Shown here piece after piece: positions 2,332 to 19,101 of a stretch of 64,000 bases of DNA; the first letter of the stretch is position 1; the number at the start of each line of letters is the position of its first letter. The stretch covers positions 1-64,000 of the forward strand of contig NZ_JABBXD010000003.1 in assembly GCF_014750655.1 (NCBI RefSeq), written 5' to 3'. The notes under the pieces were generated by a model. It ran no database searches. It saw nothing but the letters and a program-made list of their open reading frames with translations, and had not been told where the DNA came from. The position numbers and the translations under genes are program-made. This DNA comes from Salinimonas profundi. Its GTDB lineage: Bacteria > Pseudomonadota > Gammaproteobacteria > Enterobacterales > Alteromonadaceae.

Positions 2332-3156
2332 TTACTTGTTACGACGACGTACGATAAGCTTATCAGTACGCTTGTTGCTTCGGGTCTTCTTACCTTTAGT
2401 AGGAGTACCCCAAGGTGATACTGGGTGACGGCCACCGGAAGTACGTCCTTCACCACCACCGTGTGGGTGGTCTACCGGGTTCATGGCAACACCACGAACT
2501 GTAGGACGAATACCGCGCCAGCGGGTTGCACCTGCTTTACCCAGTGAACGTAGCATATGCTCTGCATTACCAACTTCACCGATAGTGGCGCGGCAATCAG
2601 ACAATACTTTACGCATTTCGCCAGAACGCAGACGTAAAGTAACGTAGTTACCTTCACGTGCCAGGATCTGAGCGTAAGCGCCAGCAGAACGTGCAATCTG
2701 TGCACCTTTGCCAGGCTTCATTTCGATAGCGTGTACAACGGAACCTACCGGGATGTTACGCATAGGCATAGCATTACCCGCTTTGATAGGCGACTGCGTA
2801 CCAGATTGAACCTGGTCGCCAGCTTTCAAACCTTTAGGTGCCAGCATGTAACGACGCTCACCGTCTGCATACAGTACAAGTGCAATGTTAGCAGAACGGT
2901 TAGGATCGTATTCTAAACGCTCAATCGTGGCAGGAATACCATCTTTGTTACGTTTAAAATCAATTACGCGATAGTGATGCTTATGACCACCACCAACGTG
3001 ACGTACAGTGATACGACCGTTGTTATTACGACCGCCATTTTTGCTGTTTTTTTCCAGCAAAGGCGCATAAGGTGCACCCTTGTGCAGGTCGTGGTTAACT
3101 ACTTTAACAACGTGACGACGACCGGCAGAAGTTGGCTTAGCTTTCATTAATGGCAT
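2332..3156 (-). CDS. rplB: 50S ribosomal protein L2
   Basis: This 274-residue protein shows TSAGRRHVV at the start, the [17 protein letters not shown]-fold segment, and the C-terminal loop [19 protein letters not shown], which includes the conserved histidine near the peptidyl transferase centre. L2 is essential for subunit association and peptide bond formation. The length is typical, and the gene follows rplW as expected. Confidence 0.98.
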
Positions 3157-3170
3157 TTCTAATCCCCTTC

Positions 3171-3470
3171 TTACTCAGCGCCACCGACAAAGTCGATGTC
3201 CTGACCTTCTTTAAGCGATACGTACGCTTTTTTCCAGTCGCTGCGTTTGCCGAAAGACATACCGTGACGCTTAGTCTTACCTTTAACGTTCACAGTGCGA
3301 ACACCTTCAACTTCAACTTCAAACAGCTTTTCAACGGCTGCTTTAACTTCAGCTTTAGTTGCGTCTTTCGCTACTTTAAATACAACAGTGTTGCCCGTTT
3401 CAGCAGCCAGCGTTGACTTCTCTGAAACGTGAGGTGCTTTAAGCACCTTCAGTAGACGTTCTTCATTCAT
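3171..3470 (-). CDS. rplW: 50S ribosomal protein L23
   Basis: This 99-residue protein begins [20 protein letters not shown] and contains [23 protein letters not shown], the conserved L23 fold. L23 sits at the exit tunnel and is the main ribosomal contact of trigger factor and SRP. Its start overlaps the rplD stop by four bases, which suggests translational coupling. Confidence 0.98.
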
Positions 3471-4072
3471 GCTAACGCCTCCTCAAGCTGTTTAACTGCG
3501 TCGGCAGTGATTAGCACTTTTTCAAATGCAATCAGGCTTACAGGGTCGATACCAGCTACGTCACGAACGTCAACCTTGTACAGGTTACGTGCTGCAAGAA
3601 ACAGATTCTCTTCTACTTCTGAAGTCACGATAAGAACGTCGTTCAATTCCAGATCGTTAAGTTTACCAACAAGATCTTTAGTCTTAGGTGCGTCAACACC
3701 GAATTTTTCAACCACAACCAAACGGTCTTGGCGAATCAGTTCAGACAGGATGCTTTTGATCGCACCACGGTACATCTTCTTGTTAACTTTTTGCTCGTGA
3801 TCGCGAGGCTTAGCTGCGAATGCACGACCACCGCCAACCCAGATTGGGCTGCGGATTGTACCAGCACGTGCACGGCCAGTACCTTTTTGACGCCATGGCT
3901 TCTTACCGCCACCACGTACTTCTGCGCGAGTCTTTTGCGCTTTTGTACCCTGACGAGCACCTGCACCGTAAGCTACAACGACCTGGTGTACCAGAGCTTC
4001 GTTGAATTCACGTCCAAAGGTCGCTTCGGATACTTCAAGAGCGCTATTCGCGTCTTTCAATGTTAATTCCAT
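3467..4072 (-). CDS. rplD: 50S ribosomal protein L4, likely operon autoregulator
   Basis: This 201-residue protein starts [16 protein letters not shown]. Its central extended loop, rich in Arg/Gly/Trp ([20 protein letters not shown]), reaches into the exit tunnel wall. In E. coli, L4 also represses its own operon by promoting attenuation in the S10 leader. The terminator-like hairpin in this operon's leader (5096-5129) suggests the same control here; that is inference from family knowledge plus the structure seen. Confidence 0.98.
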
Positions 4073-4090
4073 CAGTTCACTCCCCAGACG

Positions 4091-4729
4091 TTACGCTTTA
4101 ATCGCAGGCTTAACGATTACATCGCCGCCTGTCGCGCCAGGTACGGCACCTTTAACCAGGATAAGGTTGTTTTCCAGGTCAACACGTACAACTTCCAAAG
4201 ACTGCGTAGTAACTTGTTTATTACCAAGTTGACCCGCCATTTTCTTGCCTTTGAATACTTTACCTGGTGATTGGTTTTGACCAATTGAACCAGGTGCACG
4301 GTGTGACAAAGAGTTACCGTGGGTCATACGCTGAGAACTGAAGTTCCAACGCTTAATTGCACCCGCGAAACCTTTACCTTTTGAAGTGCCAGTCACATCA
4401 ATTTTTTTAGTGTCGTTAAAGATTTCAACAGTGATTTCACTGCCTACTTCAATATCGTCACCTTCGTTGTCTTCAAGGCGGAATTCCCACAGACCACGAC
4501 CAGCGTCAACACCTGCTTTAGCAAACTGACCTGCTTCAGCTTTGTTGATGCGGTTCGCTTTCTTGGTTCCAGCAGTAACCTGAAGAGCGCGATAACCGTC
4601 AGTATCTTCAGTGCGTAACTGAGTAACACGGTTCGGGGTCGCTTCGATAACAGTCACAGGGATAGATGTGCCATCTTCAGTGAAGATGCGAGTCATACCC
4701 ACTTTACGACCGACTAGACCAATCGCCAT
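4091..4729 (-). CDS. rplC: 50S ribosomal protein L3
   Basis: This 212-residue protein begins [20 protein letters not shown] and carries the loop [13 protein letters not shown] and [17 protein letters not shown] around residues 125-155, which approaches the peptidyl transferase centre. The glutamine in GSIGQ is the position methylated by PrmB in relatives. L3 starts large-subunit assembly. It lies between rpsJ and rplD. Confidence 0.98.
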
Positions 4730-10712: not shown

Positions 10713-11462
10713 CTATCTATTTTTTAAAACGAGTTTGCCAAATACTGATGCATCAATATAGCCCCGGTTTTTATCACCATTAACCGGCTCGATGTCATGT
10801 GAACCGATGAAGTGTTCACGTTCCTCGCTACCATCGTTGTCACAATAAGCCAGCATAAAGCCAATGACTTTTTCTGCATCAAGGCTTACTGGTTCACCTG
10901 GTGAGGCCGTATTAAACGTGTCGGGATACAGACGAACAGCGACTTCCCACGTTATTTTGTAGGGTGCCTCCGTTTGACGCGTCCAGCGACTGTTAATATG
11001 TTCATTGAGCAGAATCACGCCATTGTCGTTGTTTTCATTACCGAAATCAGCCACATTGCCATCCAGTGCGATATGGTAAGCAAAGGCGTTGAAGCTGTGC
11101 AGGTGGTTACCGCCCGATGCATCCTCATCGATAAAGATTTCCAGACAGTCATCATCCCAATAAGCGACTTTTGGATCCGGATGCGAGTCGATTAGAACAT
11201 CGTCTGTTATTTCAGCAAGCAGATAAAGAAAGTCCTCATCCCACAATAATTTATACCGTCCTGAGAAATCCTTTTCAGTCGGTTTTTCACCCAAAATATG
11301 CTTATCAAGGGCATACCACTGAGCAGAGTTCCATTCAGACTCATCTGCCTTGCCATCAATGGTAAGCGGCGATGTCGCCCGAAAAACCGGTTGCGGCGCA
11401 GTATCAGCATTTACTGTTTGCGCAACCAAAGACAGAAAAATAAGTGAAATCAGACGTTTCAT
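10713..11462 (-). CDS. Exported CBM9-like (DOMON-type) domain protein
   Basis: I choose the ATG at 11462 because it begins a clean signal peptide (MKRLISLIFLSLVAQTVNA); an in-frame ATG eight codons upstream spoils it. The mature part (about 230 residues) has the family 9 carbohydrate-binding layout: LTIDGKADESEWNSAQW, then FLYLLAEITDDVL, then YWDDDCLEIFIDEDASGG and ITWEVAVRLYP. Such domains bind sugars or haem-like ligands in the periplasm or outside the cell. No enzyme domain is fused. It converges on the antiporter gene with an 11-base gap. Confidence 0.75.
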   Translation of the reverse strand: MKRLISLIFLSLVAQTVNADTAPQPVFRATSPLTIDGKADESEWNSAQWYALDKHILGEKPTEKDFSGRYKLLWDEDFLYLLAEITDDVLIDSHPDPKVAYWDDDCLEIFIDEDASGGNHLHSFNAFAYHIALDGNVADFGNENNDNGVILLNEHINSRWTRQTEAPYKITWEVAVRLYPDTFNTASPGEPVSLDAEKVIGFMLAYCDNDGSEEREHFIGSHDIEPVNGDKNRGYIDASVFGKLVLKNR

Positions 11463-11739
11463 AGCTGCTCCTTCGAGGCAGTTCATCAGGCAAATTTTTC
11501 ACCTGGTGTTGTCATTAAGTGTCAGTATTTTACACAGTCTTGGCATCTAAGTGATCAGACGATCCCATGAAAAATAATATTTATCATAAAAATCATAAGG
11601 ATAACCATCTAAAATCACGCGTCAATATTTTGGCACTTTCAATGCATTAGGGATTAGGCGGGTAAGAATGATGTTCCGCATACGCCGAGATTGTTCAGAC
11701 TTAAACAGGCCGCGCTGTTCATTCAGCCAGATAATGCTA

Positions 11740-12303: not shown

Positions 12304-15300
12304 GGGCTGAGCTTGCTGCTCTTTCCTGATATTGGCTAGGTGTCTCATTGCACTGAATCTTAAAGCTTCGGCTAAAGTAAGAAAGGGTGCTAAAACCGAC
12401 CTCGTAAGCAACGTGCGTTACCTGCATTCCCTCATCGAGTAGCTTTTTAGCTCTGTATATCCGATACAGTTTCAGAATCTCACTAAAATTCATTGCAAAT
12501 AAGGCCTGTAGCTTTCGCGATAACTGTCGCTCACTCACAGCCATCAAATTTGCGGCTTCAGTTTTACCGAAAGCTTCGTCATGAAAGTGTCTGGATAATA
12601 CATGCATGAACCCGGTATAAAATGCCTGCTCTTTAGCATTCGCAAATTCCGGCACTTCAAAAGGCGAAGGCTCGGTAGTTCCGATTACCTCTTTTTTACT
12701 GCGCGACAGTAGTGATAGCAATTGATAGGCGGTATAGCGTAGCGTCGCGGCCTCTACCGGTTTCTCCAGCATACTATCTATATTCAGTGCTACGCACTGC
12801 TCCATCACCTCACTATCCTGTACATCGTTGATGAGAATAAAAGGAATATCTTTTAGCGTCGTCTCTTGGTTCATCGCCTGACGTAAGGCAAAACCATCGC
12901 ATTGGGACATGTAGCGATCACTGATCACCAAATCCGGCACAATCACCCGCATCGTTTTTAACGCCTGATTTCCATCTGCCGCTTCTATGCAATTATATAA
13001 TTCGCGCAATGTATCTTTGAGGTACTGCCTCATGTCCGGATTATCCTCAACAATCAGTACAATGGGGCGTTCGTCATCGATGCGGGGGATCCTCGGGACA
13101 ATATTTACCACCATGGGTGGTGTTTCAGGCATATCTTCAGATAAATTTATGAGGGGAAGATAAACCGACAGGCAATTGCCTCGGCCCGGTTTGCTATCCA
13201 CGCCTATCCACCCTGAATTAGCCAAACTGGCTTCTTTCACAATAGCCAGGCCCGGTAACCACCGGTTGTCAGTCTCTGCGTCACTTTGGGCAAAACGTTC
13301 AAAGATATCAGCCGCGTCAGACTCACTTAACGCCTCGCCCGAATCTTTAACGTGAATAATAAGCTGCAATGCTTCACATCGTGTTTCAATAGAAACTTCT
13401 CCACCATGCGGGCTTGCCGCGACGGCGTTTCTGACAAGGTTATAAACTATTTTTTCCAGTGACCCGGGGATCAACGAAATAAACCCGGTGGCACGCAAAC
13501 GTGTGTTCATTTTCACATCTTTGCGTTGAAACTCAGATTCAAGATTGGCCAAAAGTGCGGGAAGGTGCTCTTTAATTGAATAAGACTGCCTAGGCAATGA
13601 GCTGGCTGACTCCAATCGCTCAATCTCCGCGATTTGATTAATCAGCAAATGAAGGCGCCTTGCGTTGCGGGCAATAACGCTGATTCGGCGAGGATTGTCG
13701 GCATCGTCAGGATTATCCTGTACAAGTTGTAAGGGACCGAGTATCAGCGTTAGCGGGGTCTGAATTTCTTTAGCAACATTAAGCAGAGCACGGTGCTTTC
13801 TTTTTAAAATAGTGCGAATGTAGCTTTGGTTTTGCTCGAGTGCCTGCTTTTGCTCATTTACTTTGCCAGCAAGAGCTTCTTTGTAGGCTGCCACCCGGGC
13901 TCTTATGGTCACTATTGCATAAACAATTATCAGCAGACTCAGCAGCGAGTAAACGGCATATGCGTAAGGCGTGAGCCACCAAGGCGGCGCGACAATGATG
14001 GTTATTGAGCGTTCAACTGTTTCTTTTTCACTAGCTTCAGGCTCGCCGCGAATTTGCAATATATATGAGCCTGGCTGGATATTTTCTAGAAATATCCCTT
14101 TCTGCTGATTTACCAGGCTCCAGCTTTCGTTTAATCCTTTAACCCGGTAGCTAATTATCTTTTCTTCATAGTCTAAATAATCAGTTATTGCTAACTTCAG
14201 TGCTAAGTTATTATATTCGGCATCTAAGACAATTAAGTCTTTCTCTGGCTTATTTAGGTTGAGGTCAGCGAGATGTTCACGTCGGCTGAGCTTTTCATTG
14301 CTATACGAGACTGCTTCATAAACATGAATAGAGCTTTCTCTCTCGAGATAGTTGTTGATATTTAACTTCAGTGACGCGTGATTAATTACGTAGGCAAAGC
14401 GGTCGCCTTGAACAACTGACAATGATTTTGAAGAGCGGATAGCATCATACTCAAAGTCACTATCAGTGATTCCGAAACTCCTGTCCAGTGCGATGTTTTG
14501 ATTACTGTCCGTGTTGACATAATACAAACCTGTATTCGTTGCGACCAGAATTTCATTATCCGAAATGCTCCCTATTCCTCTGATGACCTTTCCATCAAGA
14601 ACACGTCGCACGTTTTCCCCATGTTCTTCCGGGTGCAGAACAGCGCCTTCACCCGTTGAGCATGCCCAAAGCTTTTCATCGTTTTGGATATGTAAGCAGT
14701 CCGTTCCCCACCCAAGTTTTTCGAAAACTTTTTTTATCCGAATATCATCATTATTAGCTGATAGTTGAAAGCCACCTTCGCCAACCACCCCTGCATAAAT
14801 TGCTCCATCAGGATTATGATGTGAAAGCAGACCTACGGCATTAGACAAAGGAACGGGAATAAGTTTACTTTCAACCAGTCTATATAAATTTACCCCACGC
14901 TTGGAGTTTATCGTTAGAAAACTTCCTGCAGAACTAATTGCCGTATCTACAATTGTTCCTGAAATACTGTTCGCTTCCAAAATATTCCCTTTAGAAGAAA
15001 AGCTTTCCAGGTCTTTTTCTATCCTAAAGGTTTCGCCTTTCTTATTTACAATAGTGACACTTTCACCCTGTATAGATAAAAACCAACTTTCTGCATTTGT
15101 TGGTAGAGAAATTCGAGAGGACTCGCCGCTTGATTCGCTATATCGGCTAAGATGACCTGGCGTTATATACCAGAATGCCGATTTACTATTGAAAATCAGA
15201 TCACTTATAGAAGATGTTTCTATAACCCCCATATGATTCAGCACCTGCAGCTTTTCCGTGCTTTTTGGCACGACAAAAAGCCCTCGCTGGGTGTCTGCAC

Positions 15301-16264
15301 CGTAAAAGTTGCCGTATTTATCAAAATCGAAGCGCCAAACAATGTTAATTACAGATTTATGCAATGATGGATAGAGGTTCAGAGGTGTTTCAAGCGTATA
15401 TTCTTGCTCATCAACAATGTATATTTTTTCAGCTGAGGCCCAGAGCTTTCCGTCAGGTGAACGCTTAATTTCAAAAAAGGGTTCTTTTTTAATGAAACGT
15501 GATGACGCCGGCCTTTCAACTATATGAACAACTTCGTTGTTAGATAAATTAATACGATGAAGTCCTATATCTGAACCAATATAGAGGCTATCTTTCTCAA
15601 CGAGCAAAGCTGTGACTGTGGTTGCCTCTGGAAGAAACTCCTCAATTGAATAAGAGGTGATCCCATTATCTGTATTGTTAAAAGCAAAGACGCCGTTGCG
15701 CTCTTCAATCCACCAGAGTGAAGCGTCCGGAATAACATCGAATGAGATGATATTCCGGTTGGTACCTTTCAGCACATTTGAAAGAGTCATCGTTTGCTTA
15801 CTAAGAGTGAGATTAAAAACAGCAATATCAACGCCGCTGTTAACGTAGAGTTCATCCTGTGCGACTTTTAGCCTCCAGGCATTCTCGTGCACGCCCTCAT
15901 CTATGTAACTAATTTTTTTGGGTTCTGAATTGCCAGGTATGAGCGTGTAAACTCCATCACCGTATGCCACGAAAATCAGTCTACCGTCGGCTAATTCTTT
16001 AACATCTGTTATGTAATTACTCTGAAGCAGACCTGCACTGCTCGTTTTTGAAATTTGAATTACCTTCTGGCCCATCAAACCAAAAAGACCATTTTCGGTT
16101 CCCAGCCAGACACCTGAAACTGAGACATGAACAGAAAGTATCAGGCCGGTTTTATTACCGGCGAAAGACTTTGAGATATCTAAGGGAGAAAGCTCTGAAG
16201 CTGATGTTTTCAGACAGAGCAAAAGCCCTATAAAAATCGGGACAAACGAAGATAAATAGCGCAT
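12296..16264 (-). CDS. Hybrid two-component regulator (propeller, kinase-like, receiver, AraC HTH) with degenerate kinase
   Basis: This 1322-residue protein has, in order: a signal peptide, a periplasmic two-component-regulator propeller (about 25-680), a Y_Y_Y domain (about 680-755), one membrane span (about 760-786), a HisKA/HATPase module (about 820-1050), a receiver (about 1065-1185) and an AraC-type helix-turn-helix (about 1225-1315). The normal SHE.RTPLTL kinase box reads AKEIQTPLTL, so the phosphoacceptor His is Lys832. The N box is kept (NLVRNAV), but the G2 glycine motif is weak (WLPGLAIV). The receiver keeps Asp1116 (VISDRYMS), though its switch Thr is Asn (ILIND). The family usually senses extracellular glycans and activates nearby genes. 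Here it diverges from a double-glycine peptide gene, its probable target. Confidence 0.88.
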   Translation of the reverse strand: MRYLSSFVPIFIGLLLCLKTSASELSPLDISKSFAGNKTGLILSVHVSVSGVWLGTENGLFGLMGQKVIQISKTSSAGLLQSNYITDVKELADGRLIFVAYGDGVYTLIPGNSEPKKISYIDEGVHENAWRLKVAQDELYVNSGVDIAVFNLTLSKQTMTLSNVLKGTNRNIISFDVIPDASLWWIEERNGVFAFNNTDNGITSYSIEEFLPEATTVTALLVEKDSLYIGSDIGLHRINLSNNEVVHIVERPASSRFIKKEPFFEIKRSPDGKLWASAEKIYIVDEQEYTLETPLNLYPSLHKSVINIVWRFDFDKYGNFYGADTQRGLFVVPKSTEKLQVLNHMGVIETSSISDLIFNSKSAFWYITPGHLSRYSESSGESSRISLPTNAESWFLSIQGESVTIVNKKGETFRIEKDLESFSSKGNILEANSISGTIVDTAISSAGSFLTINSKRGVNLYRLVESKLIPVPLSNAVGLLSHHNPDGAIYAGVVGEGGFQLSANNDDIRIKKVFEKLGWGTDCLHIQNDEKLWACSTGEGAVLHPEEHGENVRRVLDGKVIRGIGSISDNEILVATNTGLYYVNTDSNQNIALDRSFGITDSDFEYDAIRSSKSLSVVQGDRFAYVINHASLKLNINNYLERESSIHVYEAVSYSNEKLSRREHLADLNLNKPEKDLIVLDAEYNNLALKLAITDYLDYEEKIISYRVKGLNESWSLVNQQKGIFLENIQPGSYILQIRGEPEASEKETVERSITIIVAPPWWLTPYAYAVYSLLSLLIIVYAIVTIRARVAAYKEALAGKVNEQKQALEQNQSYIRTILKRKHRALLNVAKEIQTPLTLILGPLQLVQDNPDDADNPRRISVIARNARRLHLLINQIAEIERLESASSLPRQSYSIKEHLPALLANLESEFQRKDVKMNTRLRATGFISLIPGSLEKIVYNLVRNAVAASPHGGEVSIETRCEALQLIIHVKDSGEALSESDAADIFERFAQSDAETDNRWLPGLAIVKEASLANSGWIGVDSKPGRGNCLSVYLPLINLSEDMPETPPMVVNIVPRIPRIDDERPIVLIVEDNPDMRQYLKDTLRELYNCIEAADGNQALKTMRVIVPDLVISDRYMSQCDGFALRQAMNQETTLKDIPFILINDVQDSEVMEQCVALNIDSMLEKPVEAATLRYTAYQLLSLLSRSKKEVIGTTEPSPFEVPEFANAKEQAFYTGFMHVLSRHFHDEAFGKTEAANLMAVSERQLSRKLQALFAMNFSEILKLYRIYRAKKLLDEGMQVTHVAYEVGFSTLSYFSRSFKIQCNETPSQYQERAASSALS

Positions 16265-16377
16265 TGATTACGTCCATGTCCTTAAAGTGCAAGCGAAGAT
16301 TTCAAATTCTTCTACACTACTCCAGCTTCCAATCCGGAGGTTATTACAGATAATTAGGTTAAATATAGGGAATAAAG
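16265..16377. promoter_or_regulatory. Divergent promoter region between hybrid regulator and double-glycine peptide
   Basis: These 113 bases lie between two divergent starts. A ribosome-binding candidate (AGGG at 16367-16370) precedes the peptide ATG by seven bases. AT-rich tracts around 16350-16366 may hold the -10 of the peptide gene, but no strong -35/-10 pair is evident, which fits a promoter needing an AraC-type activator. Confidence 0.45.
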
Positions 16378-16545
16378 ATGAATAAGGACATTAGTCAAAA
16401 GTTGAAAGCTTTAACTGATAAAGAGCTAAAAGTAGTGAGTGGTGGCAAGCCATTCGATACGCTTTACAGTGTGACTCATTTCACTGGGGGATCTGTAATC
16501 CCCAGAATTCCACCAATAGGCAATCCCAAAGGACCTTCAAACTAA
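16378..16545 (+). CDS. Double-glycine leader peptide (bacteriocin or pheromone-like precursor)
   Basis: This 55-codon gene begins MNKDISQKLKALTDKEL. Its leader ends LTDKELKVVSGG (residues 12-23), the classic double-glycine cleavage signal (Leu and Glu spaced before Val-Ser-Gly-Gly) recognised by C39-peptidase ABC transporters. The predicted core of 32 residues starts KPFDTLYS, contains no cysteine, one His, and a Pro/Gly-rich tail (IPRIPPIGNPKGPSN). AGGG lies at good distance from the ATG. The leader type is known from class II bacteriocins, microcins and quorum peptides; the actual activity is unknown. No C39 transporter, immunity or modification gene adjoins it. It diverges from the hybrid regulator and overlaps the convergent HAD gene by nine bases. 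Confidence 0.78.
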   Translation: MNKDISQKLKALTDKELKVVSGGKPFDTLYSVTHFTGGSVIPRIPPIGNPKGPSN

Positions 16546-17043
16546 CAAAAACTGCATCCCGGCGCGCTCTGCCGCGATGCGGTCATAATCAAAGTCTCCC
16601 ACATATAAGCAGCGGCTGGGATGTAGCCCCCAGTTTGCTGCAATTTTGAGTAACGCGGTGGGATCAGGTTTGGCCGGTGCATCTTCACGGGTAATCACTG
16701 TTGTTATGGGTATCTGGTTGGTCTCAATCTTTATTGCTGTTGCACTTCGGCTGTTGCGGGTAACAATCGCCATGGGTACACCCTGCGCCTGAGAGTCTTC
16801 CACCAATGCCTTACCTTTCGTCAGCCAACGTGCGCCATGGGCATCGGCTAGTTCCTGTTCCACAATAAACGCCGCAGCGGCTTCCTTTTGCGTATCATCC
16901 TGAATATCTTCTACAAATGTCAGAATATCCACCTCTTTCGGACACCCAAGTTTCTCTCTGATGTTATGAAAATTCAGATCCGACTCAACCAGCGTACCGT
17001 CCAAATCAAAAATAACACCGTCAATATCAGAAAAATCGATCAT
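16537..17043 (-). CDS. HAD-superfamily hydrolase (phosphatase-like)
   Basis: This 168-residue protein contains all HAD motifs: VIFDLDGTLVES at residues 10-21 (nucleophile Asp and acid/base Asp), TRNSRSA for the motif II Thr, the Lys of APAKPDP, and GDFDYDRIAAERAG for the last acidic pair. The cap is small. These enzymes dephosphorylate small phosphometabolites; the substrate cannot be told. It starts 13 bases after umuC and could be co-transcribed with umuDC under LexA. Its last codons overlap the convergent peptide gene. Confidence 0.85.
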   Translation of the reverse strand: MIDFSDIDGVIFDLDGTLVESDLNFHNIREKLGCPKEVDILTFVEDIQDDTQKEAAAAFIVEQELADAHGARWLTKGKALVEDSQAQGVPMAIVTRNSRSATAIKIETNQIPITTVITREDAPAKPDPTALLKIAANWGLHPSRCLYVGDFDYDRIAAERAGMQFLLV

Positions 17044-18807: not shown

Positions 18808-19101
18808 ATGGCGATTACCGTACAATATGTCGTAACACACAAAGAGGTTGAGAAGCTTGTGACCACGGACAAAAAAGCCGCAGATCAATACGATAAAATG
18901 CTGGATACTGCAGATAACCTTGCTGGCTTCATGGCTGCCATGGGTGTGAAAATGGAAGATACACAGATGGAAGAGCTCTCCATTTTGCTGGCGAAAAACA
19001 AAGACAAGGTGAATAAGCTGCTTAAAGGCACTTCTTTAGATAGCGTACTGGAAGACAGCAGCGCAGAAGTGGTAAAGCTTAAAGCGGGCAATGAGAATTA
19101 A
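18808..19101 (+). CDS. yebG: YebG-family SOS-induced protein
   Basis: This 97-residue protein matches the YebG pattern: MAITVQYVVTHK, then KKAADQYDKMLDTADNLAGF and MEDTQMEELSILLAKNKD. In E. coli yebG is LexA-controlled and its molecular role is unclear. Here it lies 45 bases from the LexA box shared with umuDC, which supports SOS control. The protein is soluble and lysine-rich, with no signal peptide. Confidence 0.9.
   Translation: MAITVQYVVTHKEVEKLVTTDKKAADQYDKMLDTADNLAGFMAAMGVKMEDTQMEELSILLAKNKDKVNKLLKGTSLDSVLEDSSAEVVKLKAGNEN

Follow-up and report, generated by a model that had tools for sequence, protein, structure and literature searches.

Peptide pheromones that are recognized by matched, strain-specific receptors are textbook features of Gram-positive bacteria. 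In the ComX-ComP pair of Bacillus and the AgrD-AgrC pair of Staphylococcus, the peptide and the sensor domain form one variable cassette, and the kinase is conserved. We know of no Gram-negative case that combines such allelic types with a propeller sensor. Systems of the Bacteroides BT4663 type lie in polysaccharide loci and sense glycans. For the ComC-ComD pair of Streptococcus, polymorphism in the peptide agrees with polymorphism in the receptor, as stated in PMC5629823. C39 peptidases grip their substrates at leader positions -4, -7, and -12 and cut after GG, GA, or GS, according to PMC6363468.

The locus described here lies in a window of 64,000 nucleotides, by which we mean the whole stretch of Salinimonas profundi DNA that was analyzed, and its features are collected in Table 1. 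The preliminary description had presented its short peptide gene as an orphan. Instead, it is paired with a divergent gene for a hybrid sensor kinase, and this arrangement is conserved. The pair resembles ComC-ComD (as outlined in PMC5629823) in its C39-type double-glycine (GG) leader precursor, its neighboring receptor kinase, and polymorphism that runs in step. It differs in that the host is Gram-negative, the kinase is a hybrid with a periplasmic propeller ectodomain and an AraC-type output, the genes are divergent, and no exporter is linked. With ComX-ComP and AgrD-AgrC the pair shares joint variation of peptide and sensor domain on a conserved kinase; those systems differ in export and modification, have no C39 leader, and use membrane sensor domains rather than propellers. 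The domain order (with a marginal Y_Y_Y domain) and the predicted ectodomain fold are like those of BT4663-type hybrid systems, but the ectodomain in this case is hypervariable and has a peptide gene linked to it.

Table 1. Coordinates of the peptide-sensor pair and adjoining features in the window
Feature	Position	Strand	Basis or remark
Precursor peptide gene, 55 codons	16378..16545	+	Sequence, relative, substitution pattern
Leader, residues 1-23; L-12, E-8, L-7, V-4, Gly-Gly at -2/-1	16378..16446	+	Sequence; consensus from PMC6363468
Core, residues 24-55	16447..16542	+	Tail PRIPPIGNPKGPSN near-identical in S. chungwhensis
Ribosome-binding site AGGGAA	16367..16372	+	Read from sequence
Divergent intergenic region, 113 bp	16265..16377	.	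Both promoters presumed inside
Hybrid two-component sensor, 1322 aa	12296..16264	-	Domain matches; ectodomain fold by model and profile
Periplasmic ectodomain, ~residues 25-765, two propellers and Y_Y_Y	13970..16192	-	Model pLDDT 86.8; PDB match BT4663
HAD-family hydrolase gene	16537..17043	-	Conserved flank just behind peptide; outside pair
Exchangeable cassette versus G004	14014..16545	.	Sensor from ~residue 751 outward, intergenic region, and peptide to stop

The peptide gene reads as first claimed, with 55 codons, a ribosome-binding site (5 nt upstream of the ATG), and a Cys-free product of 55 amino acids, MNKDISQKLKALTDKELKVVSGG / KPFDTLYSVTHFTGGSVIPRIPPIGNPKGPSN. It is short, and a search with its own sequence gave a match in only 2 of 60 genomes, its own included, as might be expected of a chance reading frame. 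In the GTDB contig collection, the single-peptide search gave one locus (1 of 191 candidate stretches), in Salinimonas chungwhensis DSM 16280, of the order Alteromonadales. The search yielded just one relative because the family is too variable, and the position beside the sensor proved to be the key. The S. chungwhensis peptide is 55% identical across all 55 codons, has the same start and GG position, and occupies the equivalent genomic place. Both peptides end in PR[IL]PPIGNPKGPSN, and over the final 14 codons pN is 0.03 and pS is 0.45. Within the peptide family, dN/dS was 0.23 to 0.26 in three identity bands (76 pairs) and 0.30 across 13 disjoint pairs, and pN/pS was 0.32 in frame versus 0.88 (+1) and 1.14 (+2) for the same DNA. 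This substitution pattern rules out noncoding conservation and refutes a chance frame as far as sequence can; given also the family profile and fixed place described below, we regard a chance frame as extremely improbable. An antisense artefact of the convergent HAD gene was likewise ruled out, since the two frames overlap by only 9 bp and the conservation of the peptide gene is therefore not that of the antisense gene. No Rfam family or tRNA gene was found in the window at the thresholds of the tools. The test of frame conservation, leader conservation, and substitution pattern that had been set beforehand came out in favor of the gene, through the frame-specific low pN/pS and the S. chungwhensis relative, and by these measures the gene is real.

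The claim of a bacteriocin-type GG leader held up as well: the leader scored 16.1 bits against NCBIfam TIGR01847 bacteriocin_sig (E 0.013), just over the cut-off of 15.7. All four C39 helix contacts are present, and by its sequence the leader fits the C39 exporter-peptidase consensus. Leaders of the 53 family peptides are 22 to 27 residues long, with V or I at -4 in 51, L or I at -12 in 52, and D or E at -8 in 50. Gly occupies position -2 in 41 leaders and Ala in the other 12, and -1 is G in 50; the Ala-Gly end of those 12 leaders is outside the GG, GA, and GS sites listed in PMC6363468. The cores comprise 24 to 42 residues, have a median of 14% Pro, and are hardly alignable between types. Among four genus peptides tested, that of locus L038 matched NCBIfam ComC (E 2e-4, under the ComC cut-off), and the other three matched no NCBIfam family.

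The sensor gene is separated from the divergent peptide gene by 113 bp and encodes, in order, an ectodomain, Y_Y_Y, a membrane helix, HisKA, HATPase, a receiver, and an AraC-type HTH domain, the Y_Y_Y match being marginal (25.8 bits; cut-off, 26.6). An AlphaFold2 model of residues 1 to 789, built from an alignment of 40 ectodomains, had a mean pLDDT of 86.8 and a long helix at 766 to 788, which is also the most hydrophobic stretch. The best PDB match of the modeled ectodomain was the periplasmic domain of BT4663, from a heparin-sensing hybrid system (Foldseek E 5e-34; TM 0.67), which was also matched by sequence profile (E 3e-44). A CBM9-type protein gene (10713-11486) is located behind the sensor gene, and a similar-looking 249-aa ORF (L197:410-1159) follows the peptide-less sensor of genome G006.

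The C-terminal part of the sensor was matched at E <=1e-30 in 55 of 59 genus genomes, and an ortholog was counted in 54 of these, G009 being left out because its only match was a shorter paralog. When ORFs were read by eye, a short divergent GG-type ORF was found beside the sensor at 53 loci in 52 genomes (two loci in G033), 46 to 174 bp from the sensor start. The peptide was present in 52 of 54 genomes with a sensor ortholog versus 0 of 5 without (Fisher p 4e-6, with relatedness of the genomes ignored). The two exceptions were G006, which has a LysR-type gene upstream of the sensor instead, and G011, where no divergent GG-type ORF was seen. In the genomes without an ortholog (G005, G009, G023, G032, and G073) the family profile gave only weak matches (E >=0.08). 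Around other sensor-like genes, seven stretches (L086, L088, L089, and L092 to L095) yielded nothing stronger than E 5 for the family. A 24-row family profile matched 50 of 59 genomes at E <=1e-3, the best match by coordinates always being at the sensor locus; because its rows were drawn from these very genomes, the profile is a test of place and copy number rather than of existence. The G021 sensor gene is divided between two contigs (L195). A fixed leader pattern applied to every genus sensor slot was found in 49 of 55 slots versus 46 of 2750 shuffled slots. This count supersedes a flawed control that was restricted to sensors with a peptide already found, in which the pattern was seen in 47 of 51 sensor slots, 1 of 114 slots elsewhere, and 13 of 1020 shuffled ones. 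A receptor-type kinase adjoins the peptide gene, as in pairs of the ComC-ComD type.

Moving outward from the peptide start, we compared DNA identity between genomes in steps of 200 bp and placed edges at 30-bp resolution. Three independent contrasts, in which flanks were mostly 70 to 100% identical, each contained a cassette of 35 to 69% identity. Between the window and G004, its closest relative by kinase, identity was 70 to 78% in the kinase, 38 to 53% from -2400 to the peptide end, and 75 to 95% beyond. Type A (G022, G071, G061, and G081) against type B (G078, G033, and G068) gave 57 to 100% in the flanks, above 80% in most profile windows, and 35 to 69% in the cassette. The third contrast, G074 against G008, ran from 80 to 83% through 41 to 68% to 61 to 91%. 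Two within-type controls stayed at 83 to 96% across the cassette; in comparisons with G061, similarity was also lost 1.2 kb past the peptide, even between members of one type. The G033 genome has a completeness of 87% and a contamination of 4%, and the A/B contrast holds without it.

The edges of the cassette coincide with functional boundaries, and this is the main argument against hitchhiking. At the peptide stop codon, identity jumped from 0.57 to 0.90 for the window and G004, from 0.53-0.73 to 0.97-1.00 for types A and B, and from 0.47 to 1.00 for G074 and G008. The type B frame extends about 4 codons beyond the stop of type A into the common flank, as expected of a junction at that point. 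Part of the window/G004 edge is HAD conservation, as the peptide stop is also where the HAD gene ends, and this edge is the weakest of the three. On the sensor side, the edge fell near residues 751 (window), 676 (A/B), and 776 (G074/G008), corresponding to Y_Y_Y or the membrane helix. A sharp cassette edge was absent in the contrasts L043/L044 and L042/L044 and only modest in L045/L047. The window pair itself is a mosaic, in that its ectodomain and peptide type are those of S. chungwhensis (ectodomain identity, 0.53/0.40; core, 0.67) and its kinase is that of G004 (kinase, 0.89; ectodomain, 0.29/0.18; core, 0.50). When the window was compared with S. chungwhensis, identity was low along the whole profile, with no cassette visible. 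In the three contrasts, the aligned DNA shows exchange of a single cassette made up of the ectodomain, the intergenic region, and the peptide, a signature known from allele pairs of pheromone and receptor such as ComC-ComD.

Kinase identity was taken over residues 820 to 890, for which 41 of 53 sensors were long enough, and 44 sensor pairs, which are not independent, had kinase identity of at least 0.8. Core identity was 0.44 to 0.98 (median, 0.78) in the 22 pairs whose ectodomains agreed (>=0.65) and 0.29 to 0.50 (median, 0.35) in the 20 pairs whose ectodomains differed (<0.45), with two pairs between. Over these 44 nonindependent pairs with similar kinases, the Spearman correlation of core identity was 0.89 with ectodomain identity and 0.20 with kinase identity. 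Partial Mantel correlations of core and ectodomain, given the kinase, were 0.25 and 0.37 for the two ectodomain halves (p 0.001), and that of core and kinase, given the ectodomain, was 0.15 (p 0.006). The variable part of the sensor is the periplasmic one, not the kinase; peptide and sensor domain covary on a conserved kinase, as in ComC-ComD.

The simplest account of the pairing, the leader, the periplasmic variable domain, and the joint replacement is that the peptide is an exported signal and the divergent hybrid two-component protein its receptor, a reading that we put at roughly 60%. An ABC exporter from another locus would receive the leader helix of the precursor at its C39 peptidase, and cleavage after Gly23 would release the 32-residue Pro/Gly-rich core into the periplasm or the medium. 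The core would then bind the sensor of the same allele at its double-propeller ectodomain and drive a kinase-receiver relay, through which the AraC domain would switch promoters. Its targets would most simply include the shared 113-bp region, giving autoregulation, along with further promoters. Relatives would carry many peptide/ectodomain types, or pherotypes, swapped by recombination on a common kinase and presumably incompatible with one another. Counting against this reading are the nearest solved ectodomains, which belong to glycan sensors, the sensors without a peptide in G006 and G011, the pair without a close C39 exporter in G019, the Ala-Gly leader ends, the core-kinase Mantel correlation above zero, and the three further contrasts without a sharp edge.

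Peptide and ectodomain are neighbors, so one recombination event would carry both genes even without a shared function. The sensor might accordingly read a glycan and regulate an exported peptide of some other function, which hitchhikes when ectodomains are exchanged. The fold of the heparin-sensing BT4663 ectodomain, the CBM9-type gene, and the two sensors without a peptide are all in keeping with this, but hitchhiking would scatter the edge, yet the stop codon is the edge in three contrasts, if least clearly in the window, where the HAD gene ends. We consider it rather improbable. Replacement of the peptide and the sensing part as a unit suggests that a Gram-negative bacterium here has a private chemical signal with a receptor of its own. 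If the signal-receptor reading is right, the pair is the equivalent of ComC-ComD and ComX-ComP in Gram-negative bacteria, sensors of a class known for glycan recognition also read self-made peptides, and hybrid sensors outside polysaccharide loci gain a function. The pairing supplies about 50 sensors with one candidate ligand each, open to synthesis and testing. In the open-access literature, covered mainly as titles and abstract openings with few subscription journals, no description of the peptide-sensor pair was found among the matches listed.

The preliminary description had leaned toward a bacteriocin. The peptide could also be a class II microcin or bacteriocin beside a sensor that regulates it or detects attack, with both diversifying in an arms race, and toxin-immunity pairs would also suit the allelic diversity. 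The peptide shares with class II microcins and other GG bacteriocins the leader type and presumed C39 export, and locus L191, from a related genus, has genuine-looking microcin-like GG peptides between a C39 transporter and HlyD. Unlike class II microcins, the window locus has no adjacent exporter and no immunity-type ORF between the sensor and HAD genes. Its core is Pro-rich and polar, whereas those microcin-like ORFs are hydrophobic and Gly-rich. Exactly one such peptide lies beside the sensor in nearly every genome; this fixed partner, with whose ectodomain the peptide varies, is why an orphan bacteriocin is not our first choice, and we judge the bacteriocin explanation unlikely. In L191, several microcin-like GG ORFs lie at 2662-4606, between the C39 transporter and HlyD. 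Bacteriocin-like GG ORFs were also seen in G019, which has no close C39 exporter (L194:6141-6455), and in G009 (L196:4076-4276).

As first described, the window has no C39 gene. The genome search found one C39 ABC transporter, on contig C10, whereas the window and its peptide are on C3; dependence on a distant exporter, which had been proposed, is therefore probable. No exporter is in the peptide's own gene cluster, and none is linked to the sensor in the window's genus. The C10 transporter adjoins an HlyD-type protein, an ATP-grasp protein that resembles RiPP maturases but scores under their cut-offs, and a GG precursor containing YYTQAIGEDGGDLPDLL, and it could serve both GG precursors. These genes form a graspetide-like cluster (L126:5975-10859, outside the window), and a similar core, [YF]xTxA[IL]GExGGxLP, was seen in 12 of 20 C39 loci fetched in the genus. 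A graspetide precursor was rejected as an identity for the window peptide: the ATP-grasp cluster has its own precursor, the neighbors here are a sensor and a HAD hydrolase with no ATP-grasp maturase beside the peptide, and the core has no graspetide motif.

Strong C39 matches were obtained in 57 of 59 genus genomes. G006 has neither a close C39 homolog nor the peptide, and G019 has the peptide without a close C39 homolog; with C39 near-universal and G019 as a counterexample, co-occurrence with an exporter is weak as proof. The G019 case and the AG sites in 12 of 53 leaders would fit an unexported, cytoplasmic small regulatory protein in which the GG motif is incidental. The C39 contact positions are, however, kept in the leader while the core varies, and the covarying part of the sensor is periplasmic, making a cytoplasmic product very unlikely.

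Outside the genus, a search of 196 family genomes listed 40 sensor matches, and 20 upstream regions from 18 genomes were inspected. A divergent GG-type ORF was recognized by eye in 11 of the 20 regions; that of L206 is weak, and those of L214 and L217 are near-identical. Ten of the 11 have a net charge of at least +2 in the last 16 residues. The fixed leader pattern was found in 6 of 20 regions versus 6 of 1000 shuffles, below the count made by eye. A C39 transporter was present in each of the 18 genomes; in genus g34 its distance from the sensor is about 15 to 21 kb in five genomes and 47 kb in the remaining one of the six. The sensor homologs of G128 and G121 are 4 to 5 kb from a C39 transporter, with no peptide seen there; in G128 (L207:1-5001) HlyD and C39 exporter genes are both near. 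Judged by gene order and leader pattern, similar candidate pairs occur in other Alteromonadaceae genera. We see somewhat better than an even chance that the Alteromonadaceae possess a genus-wide hypervariable pheromone system, in which a C39-exported peptide would be read by a propeller hybrid sensor and types would spread by cassette recombination.

Two minor features were noted near the window pair. The intergenic region contains a short inverted repeat, CTCC...GGAG, at 16320-16339, a possible operator; a similar one is present in S. chungwhensis, and GCTC...GAGC was seen by eye at a similar place in other members. A 97-aa ORF at 18808-19101 (MAITVQYVVTHKEVEKLVTT...) is kept near the pair in several relatives.
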